36,103 nt of DNA from a virus: positions 1 to 36,103 of IMG/VR virus record IMGVR_UViG_3300025880_000039; one strand, written 5' to 3'. Positions 2,764-35,788 of the stretch are shown here, one piece after another. Numbering within the stretch: the first letter of the stretch is position 1; every line of letters starts with the position of its first letter. The translations under genes were made by a program, and so were the position numbers. The notes under the pieces were generated by a model, which did no database searches, had not been told where the DNA came from, and saw only the letters and a list, made by a program, of their open reading frames with translations.

Positions 2764-3615
2764 ATGGCAGGCGGAACAGGAATGCCTACAAGCGCACTAG
2801 GCGCAGCAGCAGGCGCAGCATTAGGTGGTAGTGGAACACCCGTTACGACAGAGGCTATGCCCGCAGGCGGCAAAGGCGGCATAAGCAATGTCCAGCCAGC
2901 AGCTGCCCCAACGGTCCAGCCAGCTCAAGCAGTCGCGCAACCTGCGGCTACTTACCAGCCAGCTGTAATGCCTCAACAGCAGGGCTTTAACGTAAACCAA
3001 GCATCCGCAAGCGCATTGCAAGGCGCGCTTGGCTCAACACAGAAAGCCATGCAAGACCCGCTAAATGTCGGAGCGTACGCAAACCCGTACACCAGCGCAG
3101 TCATTGACCGCACTCAGCAAGACATTGAGCGGCAACGTCAGATGGCAATGAACACGCTTGGCGCGCAGGCAACTGCGGCCAACGCATTCGGCGGGTCTCG
3201 CCAAGGTGTTGCTGAAGGCGTTATGGCTGGCGAATATGGCCGCATGGCTGGAGACATGGCGGCGCAGCAGCGTCAGCAAAACTACAGCCAAGCGTTGCAG
3301 GCTGCGATGTCTGACCGTCAGGCTCGCCTTGCCGCTGCGTCTCAAATGGGTCAACTCGGCCAGCAGGCGTTTGGCACAAGCCAAGCAATCCAGCAGCAGC
3401 AAGCCCAGCAGGGTCTGTTGCAGCAAGGCATCCAGCAAGCACTTATCGACGCGGCGAGACAGCAATACGCTGGATATACTGGTGCGCCAGCTCAATCCCT
3501 TCAAGCACCGCTGGCTGCGCTTGGGATTGCGCAGCAAGGTGGGGCATCAACAACGACGAAAAGCGCAAACCCCGGCTTGTTTAGCTACCTTCAGATACCG
3601 GGGTTATTTATGTAA
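2764..3615 (+). CDS. Internal virion / ejection protein, Ala/Gln-rich
   Basis: A 283-residue protein with an Ala/Gly-rich N-terminus (residues 1-75) and a Gln/Ala-rich helical C-terminal region (residues about 115-240) with long heptad-like helices. The segment NPYTSAVIDRTQQDIERQR followed by AFGGSRQGVAEG is a pattern I know from internal virion proteins of marine short-tailed phages in this position, comparable in place to T7 gp14. A purine-rich site (GAAAGG) lies about 8-13 bases before the ATG. It is followed by an overlapping ATG (TAATG) for the next gene. The role is inferred from context and composition. Confidence 0.6.
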   Translation: MAGGTGMPTSALGAAAGAALGGSGTPVTTEAMPAGGKGGISNVQPAAAPTVQPAQAVAQPAATYQPAVMPQQQGFNVNQASASALQGALGSTQKAMQDPLNVGAYANPYTSAVIDRTQQDIERQRQMAMNTLGAQATAANAFGGSRQGVAEGVMAGEYGRMAGDMAAQQRQQNYSQALQAAMSDRQARLAAASQMGQLGQQAFGTSQAIQQQQAQQGLLQQGIQQALIDAARQQYAGYTGAPAQSLQAPLAALGIAQQGGASTTTKSANPGLFSYLQIPGLFM

Positions 3616-5315
3616 TGCCACAAGGTTTCATCCCACTATCAAAGCAAATGGACTTTCTCTGGAATGAAGTGCAGGGAAAGGAAAAATCTGGCTTCGGCAA
3701 GTTCCTTACAGCCAATGCGTCTTCGCCAGAAGACTACGCAACCTTGTGGGATAAATACTATGAGCGTTCCGGCGGTGCTGGCGATGAAAAGGCTCGCAAC
3801 TACGCAAGCAGCGTTTACGCAGCAATGGCCGATGGCACATCCAACGAGGCTTTAATATCGCCAAACGCCAAGTTCGCCTACGGATACTTGACGCAGAAGG
3901 GCTTAACTCCGCAGCAAGCCGCCGGCATCACTGGCCGCCTGATGGCTGAGAGTTATGAGGATATGAACCCAGACGCACGCAACACTCTTGCCGGCGGTCA
4001 AGGCACATATGGCGTTGCGCAGTGGCGTGGTTCTCGCTTGCAGGATTTGGCCGACTTCACTGGCGTTGACATTGGCGACATAACATCACTGCCCGCGACC
4101 AAACCCGGCGGCGGTTTACTTACAAGCAATCAAGGGGGTCAAGACATGGCCATTTCTAATAAGCCTCCATATATGATGGGCGGCGAGCAAACTTACAATG
4201 CACCCAACATGCGTCAACCAGCGGCACAGCAAGCTCAGCAGGGCGGGATGCGTGGGCTTCTGTCAACGCTGAAAGATGCGGCAACGGCTGTTGACCCCAA
4301 TACTGGGCTGACAGGTTATCAGCGGTTTGCCCGTGCGCTTGATCCACTGATTATGCCGGAGATGCGCGCTGGCGCAGCGATTGAAAAGCAGGGTGCAGCT
4401 AGGGTTGCGGCAGACCGGAGAAATAAGACCGCAGACTATTTAGAGAAAATATCACCAGACGCAGCGGCTCTTTTGCGTGAGGGCTTCTTGTCTCCATCTG
4501 ACGCGCTTAGAATATCAAGCGACAACAGAATGAAGGCAATGGCCAAGTCTGCTGGTGATGCGTTTCGGGCTGGGAATATGCAGGAGGCAATGGCTATATT
4601 AACTGAAATGTCGCCTACTGCGATGGGGCAGCAAATTGCGGCGCAAGCAATGAAGCCACCAAGCGAAGTTATGGGTGGGGGCAAATACACAGTCACTTAT
4701 CCAGAAGGCAGGTCTGGCGAGCCAGTGATAACGGTGAACGAGGATGTTGTCGCGGCAGAGCAGCGCATTCGCCAAGCTGAGCTTGAGCAACAGCGCGCTG
4801 CTGCTGGATTGCCAAGCGACGCTCGCAAAGCCGAAGAAGCAGATTTTGAGGCAATATCGTCGTTAGATAATATTATTCAGGACATTGGCGGGATTGTTGA
4901 TGACTTTGGATACAACGCCGAAACTGGCGAATTTACTGGCCCCCTAAATATAGGCTTGGGCGGGTTTATAGAAGGAGCATTTGGCTCAATTGGCGTTGGA
5001 GGCAAGGGCGCAGTTGAGACCGCAAAAGCGCGAGAGGAATTTGATAGGTTCAAGACTAGGCTAATTGCAGAAAGTTTGAGATTGAACGCTGGTGTGCAGA
5101 CAGATGGCGACGCGAAGCGAGCCGCCGCGGAGCTTGGAGATGCTAAGACCGAGGCCACTGCATACGCTGCAATTCAAGAGCTTTTGAAAATAAATCAGCG
5201 GGCAAGGTCAGCAAGGGAGGCAGCCATCATTCGCCGAAGAGAGAGATTTAAGGTTTCGGGGGTAGATGTACCCGAGCCAGCGGCGGCTCCAGACCTTGGT
5301 TGGAGGGTTAAATAA
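3615..5315 (+). CDS. Ejection protein with tail-lysozyme-like domain, halves swapped
   Basis: A 566-residue virion protein predicted to open the peptidoglycan during DNA entry. Residues 86-150 match the start of the Phage_lysozyme2 type: AYGYLTQKGLTPQQAAG, ITGRLMAES with a candidate catalytic Glu112, then GTYGVAQW and RxxDLxxF. Unusually, residues 8-75 look like the end of the same domain type (MDFLWNEV, a helix, YYERSGGAGD, then Ala-rich helix) and come first, so the domain appears circularly permuted. The rest (about 200-566) is helical, with a Gln-rich linker near 205-215 and a coiled-coil-like segment near 380-410. It sits between two other ejection proteins with TAATG overlaps. Domain family recognition is from memory of motifs. 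Confidence 0.65.
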   Translation: MPQGFIPLSKQMDFLWNEVQGKEKSGFGKFLTANASSPEDYATLWDKYYERSGGAGDEKARNYASSVYAAMADGTSNEALISPNAKFAYGYLTQKGLTPQQAAGITGRLMAESYEDMNPDARNTLAGGQGTYGVAQWRGSRLQDLADFTGVDIGDITSLPATKPGGGLLTSNQGGQDMAISNKPPYMMGGEQTYNAPNMRQPAAQQAQQGGMRGLLSTLKDAATAVDPNTGLTGYQRFARALDPLIMPEMRAGAAIEKQGAARVAADRRNKTADYLEKISPDAAALLREGFLSPSDALRISSDNRMKAMAKSAGDAFRAGNMQEAMAILTEMSPTAMGQQIAAQAMKPPSEVMGGGKYTVTYPEGRSGEPVITVNEDVVAAEQRIRQAELEQQRAAAGLPSDARKAEEADFEAISSLDNIIQDIGGIVDDFGYNAETGEFTGPLNIGLGGFIEGAFGSIGVGGKGAVETAKAREEFDRFKTRLIAESLRLNAGVQTDGDAKRAAAELGDAKTEATAYAAIQELLKINQRARSAREAAIIRRRERFKVSGVDVPEPAAAPDLGWRVK

Positions 5316-7366
5316 TGTTTATTGAAATTGACGGAATTGGCGACGTTGAAGTTGACGATGAATTTGCAAATTTAACGCCCGCTGAGCAAAACGCTTTTGT
5401 TGAGCGTATTAGGAGTCAGGTTGAGGCCGGGTCCGTGTCAAGTGACGCGCCCGCTGAAGCCCAGCCAGCGGAGAAACAAAGGCTACGATCCATAGCTCAA
5501 GGTGTAACGCTTGGTTTCGCTGATGAGCTTGAGGCCGCAATTCGCAACCCGCTTTCGGCTTTAGGGTCAGCGTTAGGTCTTTCGGAGGGTCAGGACTACA
5601 AAGAGCGGTTAGACATTGTTCGCAAGAAGCTAGAAAGCTATCGCACAGAAAACCCTCTGGAAGCGATGGCTTACGAAATGGGAGGTGCGGTACTTCCAGC
5701 CGTTGCCGGTGGCGTACTGACAGCTGGCACTGGCACAGCCGCCGTTGGCGCTTCCACGGCAGCCAGACTTGCGCCAACCCTCGCACGCGCCGCAAAGGTG
5801 GGAGCGGTTGAGGGTGGCATTGCAGGCTTTGGCGCGGGTGAGGGAGGCTTTACTGAGCGGGCAAAAACTGCTGCCACTGGCGCAGCACTTGGCGGAACGC
5901 TCGGCGCCGCTGTTCCGGTCGCTGGCCAGAAGGTTGGTCAAGTTGGCCGAAGGGCCATGGACGCACTTGGCGTTGGTGGTGAAAAGCGCGCACAAACCTT
6001 TTCTCAGCGCAAAATGCTTGAGGCTCTTGAGCGTGAAGGTATGACGCCAAGGGATGCGATGCGCCGACTTGATGAGGCTCGCAGGCTTGGAGTTGAGGAT
6101 ATTACACCAGCTGATTTGGGCGAAAATTTACGCGGAGCGGCTTGGCGCGCTCAGGCCACTCCGAGTGCTGGTCGGCAAGGTGTTCTTGAGCAATTTGCCG
6201 AGCGTCAGGCTGGTCAGGCGGAGCAAATATCTTCACGCGCTTCAGAAATGGCTGGAGTCCAAGGCGACACTGGCTTGGCGTATCTTGACGATCTTGCGCA
6301 AAAAGTTGAGGCAGAGGCTAGGCCCGCTTACCGTGCGGCTTATGAGGTTGAACTGAACGCAGCTCCATTTCAAGGTATGGCCAAAAGTAAAGTCGTAAAG
6401 GACGCATACAATAAAGCGGTTGAGCTTGCAGATATTGACCCGGACATTGACATCTCATCTATGCCAAAAGACTTGAGCAAATTCTTTGACGAGCAGATGG
6501 TTCCCGGCCAGCGTGTTTTTATGCCAACAGAGGTGGCGCACAATATAAAAAAGGGACTTGATGTATTAATTGATTCCGAGACCGACGCGCTTACTGGAAA
6601 AGTAACACAGCGTGGGCGCGCATTGACTAAATTGAAAAACTCTTGGAACGCAGAGATTGTTAATCAAAACGACGCATACAAAGTGGCAAATGCACAATTT
6701 GCAGACAAGGCCAAAATGAAGCGTGCCTATGACATTGGTTTTGACTTCAACAAAACTCCAGAGGAACGCCTTGCCAAGTCAGTTGGCGCAATGACCAAAG
6801 CTGAAAAGCAATCACTCCGCGTCGGCTTGATAAGCCAAGTTGAGGAGCTGGCGTCTAAAACTGGAGACGCAACAGACTTTGTTAAGACAATTTTCGGCAC
6901 TCCTCGCCGACGCGCGGCACTTCGGCTAGCCTTTGATGACGCCAAGCAGTTTGATCGTTTTGAGCGGATGATGAAAATACAGGCCGACAAAATGAGAACG
7001 CAGCGCAAGGTATTTGGCGGTTCTGACACGGCTGAAAGGCTAATGCAGGGGGGAGATGCTGAAATTGACGCAAGCTCAGTTTTCGGCGTTGGGTCACAGC
7101 TTGGCATGGGGAATATTCCCGGCGCAGCAATGGCCGCAGGCTCTCAAATTGCTTCCAGAATGCAGGGCATGAACGAGAAGAGCGCTCAGGCAATGTCGCG
7201 GATGCTGTTTGAGCCTGATGCTGCGAAGCAAAGGCAGATGCTTGGTGGATTGCTTGGTCAACAAGAGATAGATGAGGCTATGCGGCGGCGAATGATCCAG
7301 CGTCCAGAGTTTTACTCTGGAATGATTGGCGGCATGAGCGGGCTTCTCGCTGGTGGTAGTGAATAA
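5315..7366 (+). CDS. Large ejection / internal virion protein
   Basis: A 683-residue protein, the largest of the ejection block. The N-terminus (residues 1-35) is a small acidic domain, MFIEIDGIGDVEVDDEF, seen in this class of virion proteins. Residues about 125-205 are very rich in Gly, Ala and Val with small amphipathic stretches, plausible for insertion into or passage through membranes. The remainder is charged and helical, with Arg-rich heptads at 230-330 and 500-560. The C-terminus again has Gly/Met-rich hydrophobic patches. It would correspond in place to T7 gp15/gp16. No catalytic motif was recognised. It starts on the previous stop (TAATG) and is followed by the portal gene. Confidence 0.6.
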   Translation: MFIEIDGIGDVEVDDEFANLTPAEQNAFVERIRSQVEAGSVSSDAPAEAQPAEKQRLRSIAQGVTLGFADELEAAIRNPLSALGSALGLSEGQDYKERLDIVRKKLESYRTENPLEAMAYEMGGAVLPAVAGGVLTAGTGTAAVGASTAARLAPTLARAAKVGAVEGGIAGFGAGEGGFTERAKTAATGAALGGTLGAAVPVAGQKVGQVGRRAMDALGVGGEKRAQTFSQRKMLEALEREGMTPRDAMRRLDEARRLGVEDITPADLGENLRGAAWRAQATPSAGRQGVLEQFAERQAGQAEQISSRASEMAGVQGDTGLAYLDDLAQKVEAEARPAYRAAYEVELNAAPFQGMAKSKVVKDAYNKAVELADIDPDIDISSMPKDLSKFFDEQMVPGQRVFMPTEVAHNIKKGLDVLIDSETDALTGKVTQRGRALTKLKNSWNAEIVNQNDAYKVANAQFADKAKMKRAYDIGFDFNKTPEERLAKSVGAMTKAEKQSLRVGLISQVEELASKTGDATDFVKTIFGTPRRRAALRLAFDDAKQFDRFERMMKIQADKMRTQRKVFGGSDTAERLMQGGDAEIDASSVFGVGSQLGMGNIPGAAMAAGSQIASRMQGMNEKSAQAMSRMLFEPDAAKQRQMLGGLLGQQEIDEAMRRRMIQRPEFYSGMIGGMSGLLAGGSE

Positions 7367-7378
7367 AGGACACGGCAC

Positions 7379-9460
7379 ATGGAACTTAAACCAAAATCAC
7401 GCAGCGAAATTGAGGCCATTGTTCAGGACGCAATCTCAAGTGCAGTGGACTTCATTGAGAGTGAGATCAGCGATGACCGGATCAAGGCTCAGCGCTACTA
7501 TGATGGCGAGGTTGACCTTGGCTATGAGGATGGACGCAGCAAGGTTGTAGCCACAAAAGTACGGGATACTGTACGTTCCGTGAAGCCAAGCCTGATGCGC
7601 ATATTCCTCAGCACAGCCAAGCCCGTTGAATTTGTGCCGCGCGGTCCAGAGGACGTGGCGATGGCTGAGCAGGCCACTGAGTTTATGCACCACGAGTTTA
7701 CCCGGCTCAACGGATACCGTGTCATCAGCGACGCCTTCCAAGATGCGCTGGTCAAAAAACAGGGTATCGTGAAGGCATACTGGATGACATATCCAGAGGC
7801 CGAGATTTTCACATTCACGGACTTATCCGACGATGAGTACACATATCTGGTGGACGATGACAACGTAACTGTGCTTGAGCATAGCGTTGAGATGGCAATC
7901 TCAATGGATCAGATGGGCATGGAAATTGAGCTGCCCGTCCATAGCGTAAAGCTAAGCCGCCAGAAAGAAATGGGCGAGCTGTGCATTGAGAGCGTCCCGC
8001 CGGAAGAGTTCTTCATCAACCGTGATGCACGCAGCTTTGACGATGCGTATATAGTTGCGCACCGCACAGACATGCGCGCTGGCGATTTGATCGCGATGGG
8101 CTACGATCCTGACGTTGTTCTCAAGCTAGATAGCTTGGAAAGCGGGTCAGAAATGACAGAGGCAGAGGTGTATGAGCGCCGTGGCTATGACATGGACACC
8201 TCTGACGATGATGAGCAAGACCCGGCGATGCGCAACGTCACTGTGACGGAAGCGTATATGCGCATTGATGCTGACGGAACTGGCGTGCCAATTCTGCACA
8301 AGCTCACATGCGGCGGCACTGCCTATGAGTTGCTGGACGTTGAGCCATGCGATGAGTTGCCGTTTGCCAAGTTTGAAATCGACCCAGAGCCACACACATT
8401 CTACGGCCGCTCACTGGCCGAGATTGTTATGGATGACCAAGACGCCGCCACATCTGTGCTGCGCTCCATCCTTGATAACGTGGCGATGACAAACAACCCT
8501 CGCCTTGGCATCGTTGAAGGCGCAGTTAATATTGACGACGTTTTAAACAACGAGATTGGCGCAATCGTGCGTATGCGCCAGCCCGGCTCAGTTCAAGAGT
8601 TGTCCGTTCCATTTACTGCCGGGCAGACACTTGGCGCGCTGACATACCTAGATGGCCTCGTAGAGAGCAAGACAGGCGTTTCCAGAGCATCAATGGGCCT
8701 CGACCCAGATGCAATGCAGTCAACCACAAAGGCTGCTGTGCAGGCCACTGTGCAGGCCGCAGCGGGTCAGGTTGAGGTTATGGTGCGCAACCTTGCTGAT
8801 GGTATGCGTGATCTATTTGGCATCATGCTGCGCTTGATGAGCAAGAATGTTGACGAAGAGCAAATGATGCGGATGAATGGCTCGTTTGTGCCAGTTGACC
8901 CGCGCGTTTGGGATCAGTCAATGGACGTGAGCATTAACGTGGGCCTCGGCACTGGCCGTGAGGAAGAGAAGGCTATGGCTCTCAGCCAAGCCCTCCAGAT
9001 GCAAACAATGGTTTATCAAAACTACGGCCCGATGAATGGTTTGGTCAGCTTAACTAATATCCGCAACACATTGGCAGATCAGCTGGCTGTGTCGGGCATA
9101 CGCAACGCCGACCGCTACTTTGCACCAATCACGCCAGAGATTGAAATGCAGATGTTGCAGATGCAGCAACAAGCACAGGCCCAGCAGGGTCAGGCCGCTG
9201 ATCCAAACGCTGCGTTCTTGCAGGCTGAGCAAATGAAGGCTCAGACCAAGGCGCAGACGGATATGGCTAAGTTGCAACTTGAAATGCAGAAGGCTGCCGC
9301 AAATGATGACCTCAAACGGGATCAGATGGCGCAGGACTTGCTGGTTGATGCCGCCAAAATCTATGGCGAATACGGCACAGCGGTTGACGTTGCCCGCGTG
9401 CAGGCTGAGCAGGATAAAATGCGCATGATTGGCGGCATGGCTCAGGGAGTGCCGCAGTAA
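7379..9460 (+). CDS. Portal protein (P22-type)
   Basis: A 693-residue protein, the size of P22-type portals, which form the dodecameric ring for DNA packaging and tail attachment. Supporting segments are an N-terminal helical region, RYYDGEVDLGYEDGRSKVV near residue 40, a DTVRSVKPSLMRIFLST helix, the wing/stem-like PEEFFINRDARSFDDA near 210, and PFxKFEIDPEPHTFYGRSL near 325. Residues about 580-650 form a Gln/Ala-rich helical C-terminus like the portal barrel. AAAGGA precedes the ATG at a good distance. It heads the portal-scaffold-capsid block, which here lies after the ejection genes. Confidence 0.9.
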   Translation: MELKPKSRSEIEAIVQDAISSAVDFIESEISDDRIKAQRYYDGEVDLGYEDGRSKVVATKVRDTVRSVKPSLMRIFLSTAKPVEFVPRGPEDVAMAEQATEFMHHEFTRLNGYRVISDAFQDALVKKQGIVKAYWMTYPEAEIFTFTDLSDDEYTYLVDDDNVTVLEHSVEMAISMDQMGMEIELPVHSVKLSRQKEMGELCIESVPPEEFFINRDARSFDDAYIVAHRTDMRAGDLIAMGYDPDVVLKLDSLESGSEMTEAEVYERRGYDMDTSDDDEQDPAMRNVTVTEAYMRIDADGTGVPILHKLTCGGTAYELLDVEPCDELPFAKFEIDPEPHTFYGRSLAEIVMDDQDAATSVLRSILDNVAMTNNPRLGIVEGAVNIDDVLNNEIGAIVRMRQPGSVQELSVPFTAGQTLGALTYLDGLVESKTGVSRASMGLDPDAMQSTTKAAVQATVQAAAGQVEVMVRNLADGMRDLFGIMLRLMSKNVDEEQMMRMNGSFVPVDPRVWDQSMDVSINVGLGTGREEEKAMALSQALQMQTMVYQNYGPMNGLVSLTNIRNTLADQLAVSGIRNADRYFAPITPEIEMQMLQMQQQAQAQQGQAADPNAAFLQAEQMKAQTKAQTDMAKLQLEMQKAAANDDLKRDQMAQDLLVDAAKIYGEYGTAVDVARVQAEQDKMRMIGGMAQGVPQ

Positions 9461-14180: not shown

Positions 14181-14330
14181 ATGGGACTGTATTCAAACAT
14201 CGCAAAAAAGCGTGCGCGCATTAAAGCCGGAAGCGGAGAGAAAATGCGCAAGCCCGGCACTAAAGGAGCGCCAACGGCCAGTGCATTTAAAGCGGCTGCC
14301 AAGACAGCAAAGAAAAAGGCTAAAAAATGA
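14181..14330 (+). CDS. Tiny basic phage protein
   Basis: A 49-residue protein, almost wholly basic, starting MGLYSNIAKKRARIKAGSGE, then MRKPGTKGAPTASAF and an Ala/Lys tail. I recognise this pattern from small proteins paired with the DUF6321-like gene in phages. It starts 4 bases after that gene and its stop overlaps the endolysin ATG (ATGA), so all three are coupled. Its role is unknown. Confidence 0.75.
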   Translation: MGLYSNIAKKRARIKAGSGEKMRKPGTKGAPTASAFKAAAKTAKKKAKK

Positions 14331-14947
14331 GCAAGGCAATGGCAACGCTCCAAGCTAAAATCGGCACAACAGCCGATGGCGAGTTTGGCCCGAATACAGC
14401 GCGAGCAATCGCAAAGCACTTCAACCTATCCCCGGCGCGTGGCGCACACTTGATGGGTCAGGCATCGCATGAAAGCGGTGGCTTCAAGCGCACCCGTGAG
14501 AGCCTGTATTACAGCACGCCAGAACGCATCCAAGCCGTCTGGCCATCTCGCTTCCCAACCGTTGCCGATGCAGAGCCGTATGCCAAAAACCCAACAGGGC
14601 TTGCTGGCAAGGTTTACGCTGGCCGCATGGGCAATGAGAATGAAGCGCAGGCTAGCCTGTACATTGGGCGAGGTTTCTTGCAGCTTACCGGGCGTAATAA
14701 TTATCGGGCGTTTGCGTCTGACATGGGAGTGCCGAAGGTTATGACCGACCCAGACTTGGTGGCTGACGAATATGCCTTTGAGACTGCGCTGTGGTTCTTC
14801 AATAAGAATGGGTTGTTTGACATTGCAGACGAGGGCGTAACGAATGACGCCATCAAGCGCATCACGCGCAGGGTGAACGGCGGCTATCATGGTCTGGATG
14901 ATCGAAGCAACCAGAGCAAGAAAATCCACACTTGGCTCATGGCCTAG
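14327..14947 (+). CDS. Endolysin, GH19 chitinase-like
   Basis: A 206-residue lysis enzyme of glycoside hydrolase family 19, cleaving peptidoglycan glycan strands. Residues 1-30 resemble a short peptidoglycan-binding-type repeat (DGEFGPNTARAIAK). The catalytic domain follows: ASHESGGF with the likely acid Glu49, a YYSTPERIQAVWPSRF segment, and the hallmark YIGRGFLQLTGRNNY at 112-126. The C-terminus has ITRRVNGGYHGLDDR. No signal peptide is seen, so release would need the holin candidates just upstream. It closes the lysis cassette. Confidence 0.93.
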   Translation: MSKAMATLQAKIGTTADGEFGPNTARAIAKHFNLSPARGAHLMGQASHESGGFKRTRESLYYSTPERIQAVWPSRFPTVADAEPYAKNPTGLAGKVYAGRMGNENEAQASLYIGRGFLQLTGRNNYRAFASDMGVPKVMTDPDLVADEYAFETALWFFNKNGLFDIADEGVTNDAIKRITRRVNGGYHGLDDRSNQSKKIHTWLMA

Positions 14948-33572: not shown

Positions 33573-33595
33573 GGCCAGCTATATGCTGGCCTTTT
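33573..33595 (+). terminator. Intrinsic terminator before nozzle gene
   Basis: GGCCAGC at 33573-33579 pairs perfectly with GCTGGCC at 33585-33591 with loop TATAT, followed by TTTT. It closes the adaptor-fibre transcript. Confidence 0.88.
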
Positions 33596-33621
33596 GCATA
33601 TTTGGTACAATGTGCTATATT
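33594..33621 (+). promoter_or_regulatory. Promoter for nozzle/fibre/ejection genes
   Basis: TTGCAT at 33594-33599 and TATATT at 33616-33621 with a 16-base spacer, directly after the terminator and 30 bases before the ATG at 33651. The same -35 hexamer occurs in the early promoter at 17066. Confidence 0.6.
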
Positions 33622-33650
33622 GGCCGCAATGCGTTTTCCGAGAGGCGACA

Positions 33651-35132
33651 ATGGCTTTAATTGATCTAAACATTCCAGCTGGCGTCTATCGCAACGGCAC
33701 TGACTTGCAGAGTATGGGCCGTTGGCGTGATGCAAGCCTTATTCGCTGGCATGACGGCGTTATGCGTCCGGTAGGCGGGTGGCGCACGCGCAACAACAAC
33801 GCTGCAAACGCAAGCATACGCGGCATAACTACTTGGAACACAAATAGCAGCGACCGCTGGATTGCCGCTGGCACATACAACAAACTTTATGCTTGGGCCG
33901 AGACTGGCGTTCAATATGACATTACCCCGGTTGGATTAACTGCTGGGCGTGAGGACGCAATATCTTTCACAGGCTACGGCGGCGCGGAGTTTGGCGCATA
34001 CGCATACGGCATTGCCCGGCCTGACACAGTTCGCATTCAGCCAGCGACCAGCTGGGATTTGGAAACGTGGGGCGAATACTTGCTGGCGTGCAACGAGGAC
34101 GATGGCAAGATTTACGAATGGCAGCTCGCCACAGGCACGCCCGCTGCGGTGTTGTCTAACGCGCCGACAAGTAATCTTGGTTGCGTTGTAACTGAAGAGC
34201 GCTTTTTGTTTGCGCTTGGCGCGGGCGGCAACCCTCGCAAAGTGCAGTGGTCTGACCGTGAGGATAACAATTCATGGACGCCAGCCGCTACAAACGAGGC
34301 GGGTGATCTTGAGCTAAACACGTCTGGCGCATTGATGAAGGGCTTGACTGTTGCTGGTCAAACCTTGCTTTTGACAACGCGCGATGCCCACGTTGCTAAC
34401 TACATTGGCCCGCCATACGTTTACGGCATTGAGCGCGTTGGCACGTCCTGCGGGCTTGCAGCAAAACAGGCTGCCGTTGTTGTGGATGCGGGTGCATTCT
34501 GGATGGGCGTTAATTCGTTTTATCTGTATCAGGGTGGGCAGGTTCAGGAGTTACCCTGCGACGTGTCAGATTATGTCTTCAACGACATCAACCGTGGCCA
34601 GATCAGTAAATCGTTTGGAATGTCTAATTCCATGTTTGGTGAGATTACTTGGTTTTACCCAAGCGCGGCATCAACGGAAAACAATCGCTATGTGACGTTT
34701 AATTACACAGAAAACACATGGTACATTGGCGAGCTGGCCCGCACAGCTGGCGTTGACCGCAGCGCATTCCGCCAGCCAATGATGGCTGATCCAGCGGATT
34801 ACAAGATTTACGAGCATGAGATTGGCTTTGATTACGGTGCGTTGACACCTTACGCCGAGACAGGTCCGTTCCGCATTGGCGCTGGGGATCAAGTTATGAG
34901 CGTGACTGAGCTTCTGCCGGATGAAAAGTCGCAAGGTGACGTAAATGCCGTCTTTAAGACGCGCTTTTACCCGAATGGCACTGAGCGGTCATACGGGCCT
35001 TACTCCATGAGCAACCCGACATCTGTGCGGTTTACCGGGCGTCAAGTGCGGATGCGCGTTGAGGGTCAGCGCTTATCTGATTGGCGCGTTGGCATTAATC
35101 GTCTTGAAGCTGTTGGCGGTGGCCGTCGATGA
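33651..35132 (+). CDS. Tail nozzle / stabilisation protein (P22 gp10-like role)
   Basis: A 493-residue, beta-rich protein. ATG 33651 has a GAGAGG site; an earlier in-frame ATG at 33594 would overlap the promoter. It opens ALIDLNIPAGVYRNGTDLQS, then ASLIRWHDGVMRPVGGW, a start I know from nozzle/stabilisation proteins of marine short-tailed phages. Repeated strands with Trp (WIAAGTYNKLYAW, WGEYLLACNEDDGKIYEW, KVQWSDREDNNSWTP) suggest a beta-propeller. The end matches the fragment at 1-262. It overlaps the fibre gene by ATGA. Confidence 0.78.
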   Translation: MALIDLNIPAGVYRNGTDLQSMGRWRDASLIRWHDGVMRPVGGWRTRNNNAANASIRGITTWNTNSSDRWIAAGTYNKLYAWAETGVQYDITPVGLTAGREDAISFTGYGGAEFGAYAYGIARPDTVRIQPATSWDLETWGEYLLACNEDDGKIYEWQLATGTPAAVLSNAPTSNLGCVVTEERFLFALGAGGNPRKVQWSDREDNNSWTPAATNEAGDLELNTSGALMKGLTVAGQTLLLTTRDAHVANYIGPPYVYGIERVGTSCGLAAKQAAVVVDAGAFWMGVNSFYLYQGGQVQELPCDVSDYVFNDINRGQISKSFGMSNSMFGEITWFYPSAASTENNRYVTFNYTENTWYIGELARTAGVDRSAFRQPMMADPADYKIYEHEIGFDYGALTPYAETGPFRIGAGDQVMSVTELLPDEKSQGDVNAVFKTRFYPNGTERSYGPYSMSNPTSVRFTGRQVRMRVEGQRLSDWRVGINRLEAVGGGRR

Positions 35133-35788
35133 CGCAGCAAAACCGTCCACCAGAGCCGCGAGATAAGGACTGGCAGACGTGGGGTCGGCGCATGATGTCG
35201 TACCTCTCGCAAACCCGTTCTGCGCTGGTTCAGCAGACTGGCGACGAAAGCGCTGCCGATGATGGCACGTTGATGTGGGACAGAGAAAACTTGTATCCTG
35301 TCGTGAGTAAGAACGGCGCGTGGGTTCAGGTTGTGTTAGAGGACGGCAATGCCAGCGGCTCAATTACAACTGACCAAACAGCTGTTGCGATAAACACAGC
35401 GTACGCTTTAACGTACACTTTATCATCATCTGATGGCATTACTAGCGGCACACCAGCCTCGCGCTTGGTGTTTGAGGAAGCTGGCGAGTACATGGTTAGC
35501 TTTTCAGCGCAGATTGCGTCCACATCCGGTTCAACTGTAAACTTCTGGTTTTGGCCTCGCGTCAACGGAGTTGACCTTGCGGGTTCGACTATGAAAAACG
35601 CTTTACATCAAAATGGCGCAACTCTTGTGGTTAGCCGATCTGCAATACTTAACCTTTCCGCTGGAGATTACTTGGAAGCTATGTGGGCCGTTGACAGCAC
35701 CAGCGGTTTTCTTGATGCAACTGCGGCAACTGCATTTGCACCCGCAGCACCAGCGTCCACTATTGCAATAACGAGGTTGCACGGATGA
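35129..35788 (+). CDS. Tail fibre / receptor-binding protein (allele B)
   Basis: A 219-residue protein, allele of 259-921. Residues 1-73 differ at only two places. From there to the end many residues change while glycine and hydrophobic positions stay (DGITSGTPASRLVFEEAGEY, FSAQIASTSGSTVNFWFWP, VDSTSGFL, TIAITRLHG). The head is one residue shorter than in A. The stop overlaps the gp13-like ATG (ATGA), unlike allele A where the start lies 8 bases before the end of the fibre gene. Confidence 0.77.
   Translation: MTQQNRPPEPRDKDWQTWGRRMMSYLSQTRSALVQQTGDESAADDGTLMWDRENLYPVVSKNGAWVQVVLEDGNASGSITTDQTAVAINTAYALTYTLSSSDGITSGTPASRLVFEEAGEYMVSFSAQIASTSGSTVNFWFWPRVNGVDLAGSTMKNALHQNGATLVVSRSAILNLSAGDYLEAMWAVDSTSGFLDATAATAFAPAAPASTIAITRLHG

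Follow-up and report, generated by a model that had tools for sequence, protein, structure and literature searches.

A circularly permuted Phage_lysozyme2 domain at the N-terminus of a putative virion protein in uncultured podoviruses

In the window, by which we mean the whole 36,103-nucleotide stretch of viral DNA that was analysed, we found a gene whose product begins with a Phage_lysozyme2 domain (PF18013) that has its two halves encoded in reversed order (Table 1). Residues 1-160 are in all likelihood a circularly permuted lysozyme that forms one fold with Glu112 as its catalytic residue, and that would act as the N-terminal wall-cutting module of a virion protein, likely an ejection protein.

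When searched against PF18013, a profile of 140 positions with a curated cut-off of 28.2 bits, the whole 566-residue protein scored 77.9 bits (E 1.1e-21). Residues 1-81 alone matched profile positions 75-140 at residues 8-71 (33.8 bits, E 4.4e-8) and residues 76-172 alone matched positions 2-66 at residues 84-149 (55.6 bits, E 8.2e-15), so that each half passes the cut-off by itself. The initial annotation had placed swapped halves at 3615-4065 with limits at residues 8-75 and 86-150; the two reversed matches bear out the swap, and the limits were nearly right, needing only to be moved to the residues given above. A complete lysozyme from residue 86 onward, which that annotation had named as evidence against its own proposal, is absent, as the profile match stops near residue 150. 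A six-frame search of the whole window returned these two matched places only and no other copy or remnant of PF18013. Both halves of the profile are thus found, with the catalytic half not encoded before the C-terminal half, and because this reversal is seen in the window and in 41 relatives we consider the domain encoded within 3615-5315 to be a permuted offshoot of PF18013 rather than a canonical member.

Table 1. Features of the permuted lysozyme gene and its neighbours (window coordinates)
Feature	Residues	Position	Strand	Remark
Upstream gene, phrog_4287 DNA ejection protein match		2764..3615	+	its stop and the lysozyme-gene start codons overlap
Whole gene: permuted lysozyme module and common C-terminal part		3615..5315	+	566 aa
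Phage_lysozyme2 C-terminal half (profile 75-140), encoded first	8-71	3636..3827	+	
New joint, canonical C-terminus to N-terminus	72-83	3828..3863	+	alignment with canonical relatives; pLDDT ~90
Phage_lysozyme2 N-terminal, catalytic half (profile 2-66), encoded second	84-149	3864..4061	+	
Codon of Glu112, putative catalytic acid		3948..3950	+	aligned with phi29 gp13 Glu45
Domain's new C-terminus and linker	150-177	4062..4145	+	
AAGGGGGT with the in-frame ATG of Met178, a putative internal start of translation		4132..4148	+	module junction
C-terminal part common to phages with other N-terminal hydrolases		4149..5312	+	without named family
Downstream gene, phrog_5880 (unknown function)		5315..7366	+	candidate ejection protein by position only
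Portal protein gene		7379..9460	+	two genes past the lysozyme gene

IMG/VR scans supplied relatives both of the entire protein and of the domain, and their half order was read with the same Pfam profile. In the first set, 30 of 40 records contain both halves, invariably with the C-terminal half first, and the other 10 share the C-terminal part of the protein alone and have no PF18013 match. A second set added 11 clade members with reversed halves, together with 29 more distant records that each give a single uninterrupted match in normal order. The reversed order is therefore found in all 41 uncultured relatives possessing the domain. One might suspect an artefact of assembly or reading frame, the window being a viral contig of metagenomic origin, but the same order recurs in at least 41 separately assembled contigs as one open frame without stops, and we regard this explanation as practically out of the question. 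HMMs built from the permuted halves only likewise place the halves of canonical loci in the opposite order, and across all fetched loci they gave 104 N-C patterns and 129 C-N patterns, every one of the latter in the permuted clade, although many of these 129 matches come from overlapping loci. Bacterial genomes with matches above the cut-off (8 seed genomes) each have one in normal order, and, with the seed genome counted, normal-order matches occur in 6 of 385 genomes in the class of the Paracoccus seed genome (G082) and in 6 of 299 genomes in the phylum of a second seed genome (G084). Against genome contigs, the permuted profile found no relative and the canonical profile found canonical domains only, none of them permuted. 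The premise that known Phage_lysozyme2 proteins begin with the half containing QAAGI...ES...GxAQW thus holds in 29 of 29 distant viral records as well as in the bacterial matches above the cut-off.

Each permuted half is homologous to its canonical counterpart. By hhalign, the C-terminal half aligns to canonical columns 81-143 (prob 98.5, E 1.4e-15) and the N-terminal half to columns 7-75 (prob 98.8, E 6.1e-17). The family profile also finds the solved lysozyme of phi29 gp13 (E 5.3e-15; PDB 3csq, 3csr), with profile positions 64-129 falling on gp13 residues 7-72 and positions 10-68 on residues 92-157, the reverse of the profile order, although the 92-157 stretch is weak when taken alone (E 0.026). 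The same search shows the halves swapped likewise in the Gp16 chain of 9m7n. In a single-sequence search, counting along the alignment, Glu112 pairs with gp13 Glu45, which we take to be the catalytic residue. The window domain therefore resembles PF18013 proteins, phi29 gp13 included, in the sequence of both halves and in the position of the catalytic glutamate, and differs from canonical members in the reversal of its halves, in having new termini in the loop between them and in forming the very N-terminal end of another protein. Phi29 gp13 is a virion-associated wall hydrolase, as the window protein probably is too.

Both halves are under purifying selection, with a mean dN/dS in the main clade of 0.086 for the C-terminal half and 0.063 for the N-terminal half. 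The motifs of residues 1-75 are kept down to 33-38% identity, the YGxAQW/F and YER motifs are kept in the alignment of permuted and canonical sequences, and Glu112 is invariant across the permuted set in all alignments made. This conservation bears on whether the domain, though permuted and folded, might have lost hydrolysis and now serve as a peptidoglycan-binding or structural module. Such a loss appears improbable given the invariant glutamate, the retained motifs and the presence of other hydrolases in the same slot of sister phages; we favour an active enzyme, in which Glu112 would be the catalytic acid.

A comparison of permuted and canonical sequences places the cut in a loop between the canonical helices '..RQTDLVRFAG' and '..TQLRFLVSE'. 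In the proposed arrangement the new termini would open in the corresponding loop, between a helix ending '..QDLADFTG' and one starting 'SKQMDFLWNE', and the old N- and C-termini would be linked through the short loop of residues 72-83. Permuted sequences form one clade in the tree of both halves (support 0.90) and in the tree of the C-terminal half (0.895), and therefore a single permutation event probably gave rise to them; in the tree of the N-terminal half only, the permuted clade is not fully separate and includes two canonical sequences with support of 0.62. Permutations usually arise by tandem duplication and later trimming, and hence a relic stage must once have existed. The initial annotation had offered as its alternative that residues 1-75 are such a relic, left from a first lysozyme copy and fused to a shortened second copy. 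Selection on the first half is, however, near that on the other half and both lie at 0.06-0.09, the motifs of the first half persist in divergent sequences and no second copy of either half was found in the window or across the fetched loci, and we therefore judge the relic highly improbable. By contrast, the genuine circular permutation that the same annotation proposed agrees with the fixed order in 41 relatives, the purifying selection, the swapped map onto one solved lysozyme and the compact model described below. Tandem or intermediate architectures (N-C-N-C or C-N-C) were not found across the fetched loci, and duplication with trimming is therefore a route that we infer for the window domain. 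In a subgroup of relatives (L108, L109, L110, L113 and L116) the Pfam match of the N-terminal half extends to profile position 112-113, which might be a weak trace left by a second C-terminal half; our own C-terminal-half HMM finds none in this group and we treated the extension as probably spurious.

Structure prediction points to a single domain. With 26 close relatives as input AlphaFold2 gave a pLDDT of 82.5 and a pTM of 0.84, and with 70 rows it gave one compact domain with a pLDDT of 93.9 and a pTM of 0.91. The 70-row input includes canonical half-fragments, which aid each half and supply no cross-half signal, and the high pTM argues that the halves hold a defined relative position. Residues 1-75 are therefore not predicted as an independent fold, in keeping with the initial annotation, and the permuted chain would still fold as one lysozyme-like domain. 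Ejection proteins are oligomeric (PMC8954989) and the linker at residues 72-83 is short, so the halves might instead stay unpacked within a chain, the lysozyme being completed between neighbouring subunits by domain swapping; the single-chain model is nonetheless confident over both halves and its linker is ordered (pLDDT about 90), which makes swapping distinctly improbable beside a domain completed within one chain. Model residues 77-156 align to residues 10-88 of 3csq (Z 2.5, rmsd 3.6, 75 aligned), residues 4-73 on 86-160 of the same structure (Z 2.3, rmsd 3.0, 68 aligned) and residues 82-156 on hen lysozyme 2-82 (Z 2.0). Order-bound aligners recover one half per match, at low Z values that unrelated helical proteins equal, and the gp13 matches count only because their ranges agree with the sequence mapping. 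The VIA-align rows that stood above gp13, histone pairs and TFIIB, were taken as generic helical matches. Foldseek gave no match at E<=0.001 against PDB and BFVD. Its top BFVD row, A0A6J5MAM7, aligns over 161 columns (25% identity, E 8.7e-3, rmsd 19) with the order permuted, and may represent a tandem or a further permuted lysozyme.

The module occupies a slot that is filled differently in sister phages. In ten sister records this C-terminal part follows a different N-terminal module: SLT in L019, with near-identical starts in L022 and L029, glucosaminidase in L024 and, by similarity, L031, or, in L041 (L041:5497-5870), a module without a Pfam match. The L041 module matches phrog_14527 (unknown function) weakly and is a candidate new wall hydrolase. 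Hydrolase_2 takes this place in the corresponding gene of Octadecabacter Antarctic DB virus 2, the isolate whose portal is closest, and the gene order of ejection block and portal is the same in Octadecabacter phage DB2 (gp19). The slot is also filled differently in L103:5744-7315. Pfam and phrog searches of the C-terminal part gave no named family and no named ejection protein, and a tblastn search with residues 201-566 across 50,697 phage records returned one weak match, to an unnamed protein.

These surroundings recall T7 gp16, which has a transglycosylase in its N-terminal 156 residues that is required with highly cross-linked peptidoglycan, and movement of such domains from one ejection protein to another is known (PMC8954989). 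Like T7 gp16, the window protein has an N-terminal peptidoglycan hydrolase module, ejection and portal neighbours and modules that swap, but T7 gp16 is 1318 residues long rather than 566, its hydrolase is of a different family and the searches above detected no similarity of the C-terminal part of the window protein to gp16 or gp15. From the ejection-gene neighbours, the portal, the slot swapping and the T7 gp16 parallel, we infer an entry-stage wall hydrolase: the permuted module would be the N-terminal peptidoglycan cutter of a protein in the virion, which is most likely an ejection protein. When the genome enters, it may breach the cell wall locally, in the manner of the T7 gp16 transglycosylase. 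A separate endolysin gene with a Glyco_hydro_19 match lies at 14327-14947 of the window, and the permuted lysozyme is therefore not the sole wall hydrolase of this phage. At the contig ends, 2-921 and 34870-35788 encode proteins that are near-identical and then diverge (ORFs 2-262 and 259-921 at one end, the end of 33594-35132 and 35129-35788 at the other), reflecting either the overlap of a circular genome assembled from mixed variants or a duplicated gene.

At the junction between module and C-terminal part, the ATG of Met178 (4146-4148) is preceded by AAGGGGGT, a Shine-Dalgarno match. Among in-frame ATGs, the match at the junction ranks first or second in all 17 genes tested, which include swapped-module genes and that of the Octadecabacter phage, with the caveat that this ATG was chosen after being seen; its absolute strength is modest (-5.6 to -6.9) in L047 and in the genes with SLT, glucosaminidase or L041-type modules. 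Within the main permuted clade the site codons CAA GGG GGT do not vary among 23 genes, although GGG makes up 12.5% of glycine codons in the rest of these genes. Invariant runs of at least three codons number only four in 178 codons, two of them at the module junction. This sequence pattern suggests that the junction ATG would give a second, hydrolase-free product. Internal starts are known to yield short isoforms of endolysins such as CTP1L and phi2638A (PMC4777826, PMC12203907), in which, as predicted here, an in-frame start lies between the enzymatic and the second part; the short form of those endolysins is a wall-binding domain, whereas in the window gene it would be a virion protein part. 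It seems unlikely to us that the permutation is itself adaptive, providing a free end at the very N-terminus from which the module could unfold, pass the portal and refold at ejection, with the conserved internal start leaving the hydrolase on some subunits only of an ejection assembly.

Among open-licence PMC papers, we found no report of a permuted Phage_lysozyme2 domain. A permuted lysozyme core does already have one structural precedent, the Enc34 endolysin (PMC8943055). In its ORF39 catalytic domain the helix with the catalytic glutamate comes last rather than first, giving a permuted core as in the window domain. ORF39, however, is an endolysin and not a virion protein, is all-helical without a beta-lobe and recognisable by structure only, and has one helix moved, whereas in the window domain whole halves have moved. 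Natural circular permutation within a cell-wall hydrolase family is also seen in the YaeF-like and LRAT-like NlpC/P60 enzymes, which have a permuted catalytic core (PMC6403190, PMC12994826). Unlike the window domain, which belongs to a glycosidase family, these are papain-like cysteine enzymes, and their permutation accompanies a shift to lipid substrates of which the window domain gives no indication.

Natural circular permutations whose sequence still leads back to the unpermuted family seem rare among cell-wall glycosidases, the Enc34 case, at the level of structure, being the only one found in the papers searched. The permutation described here looks like a single event and was found in just one group of podoviruses, uncultured and mostly of marine type, and order-bound fold searches miss such a domain as a whole. 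Its many canonical relatives provide natural controls for testing how it folds, whether it is active and how it leaves through the portal. The exchange of unrelated hydrolases in one slot beside a conserved internal start can serve as a model of the way in which wall-cutting modules enter ejection proteins.
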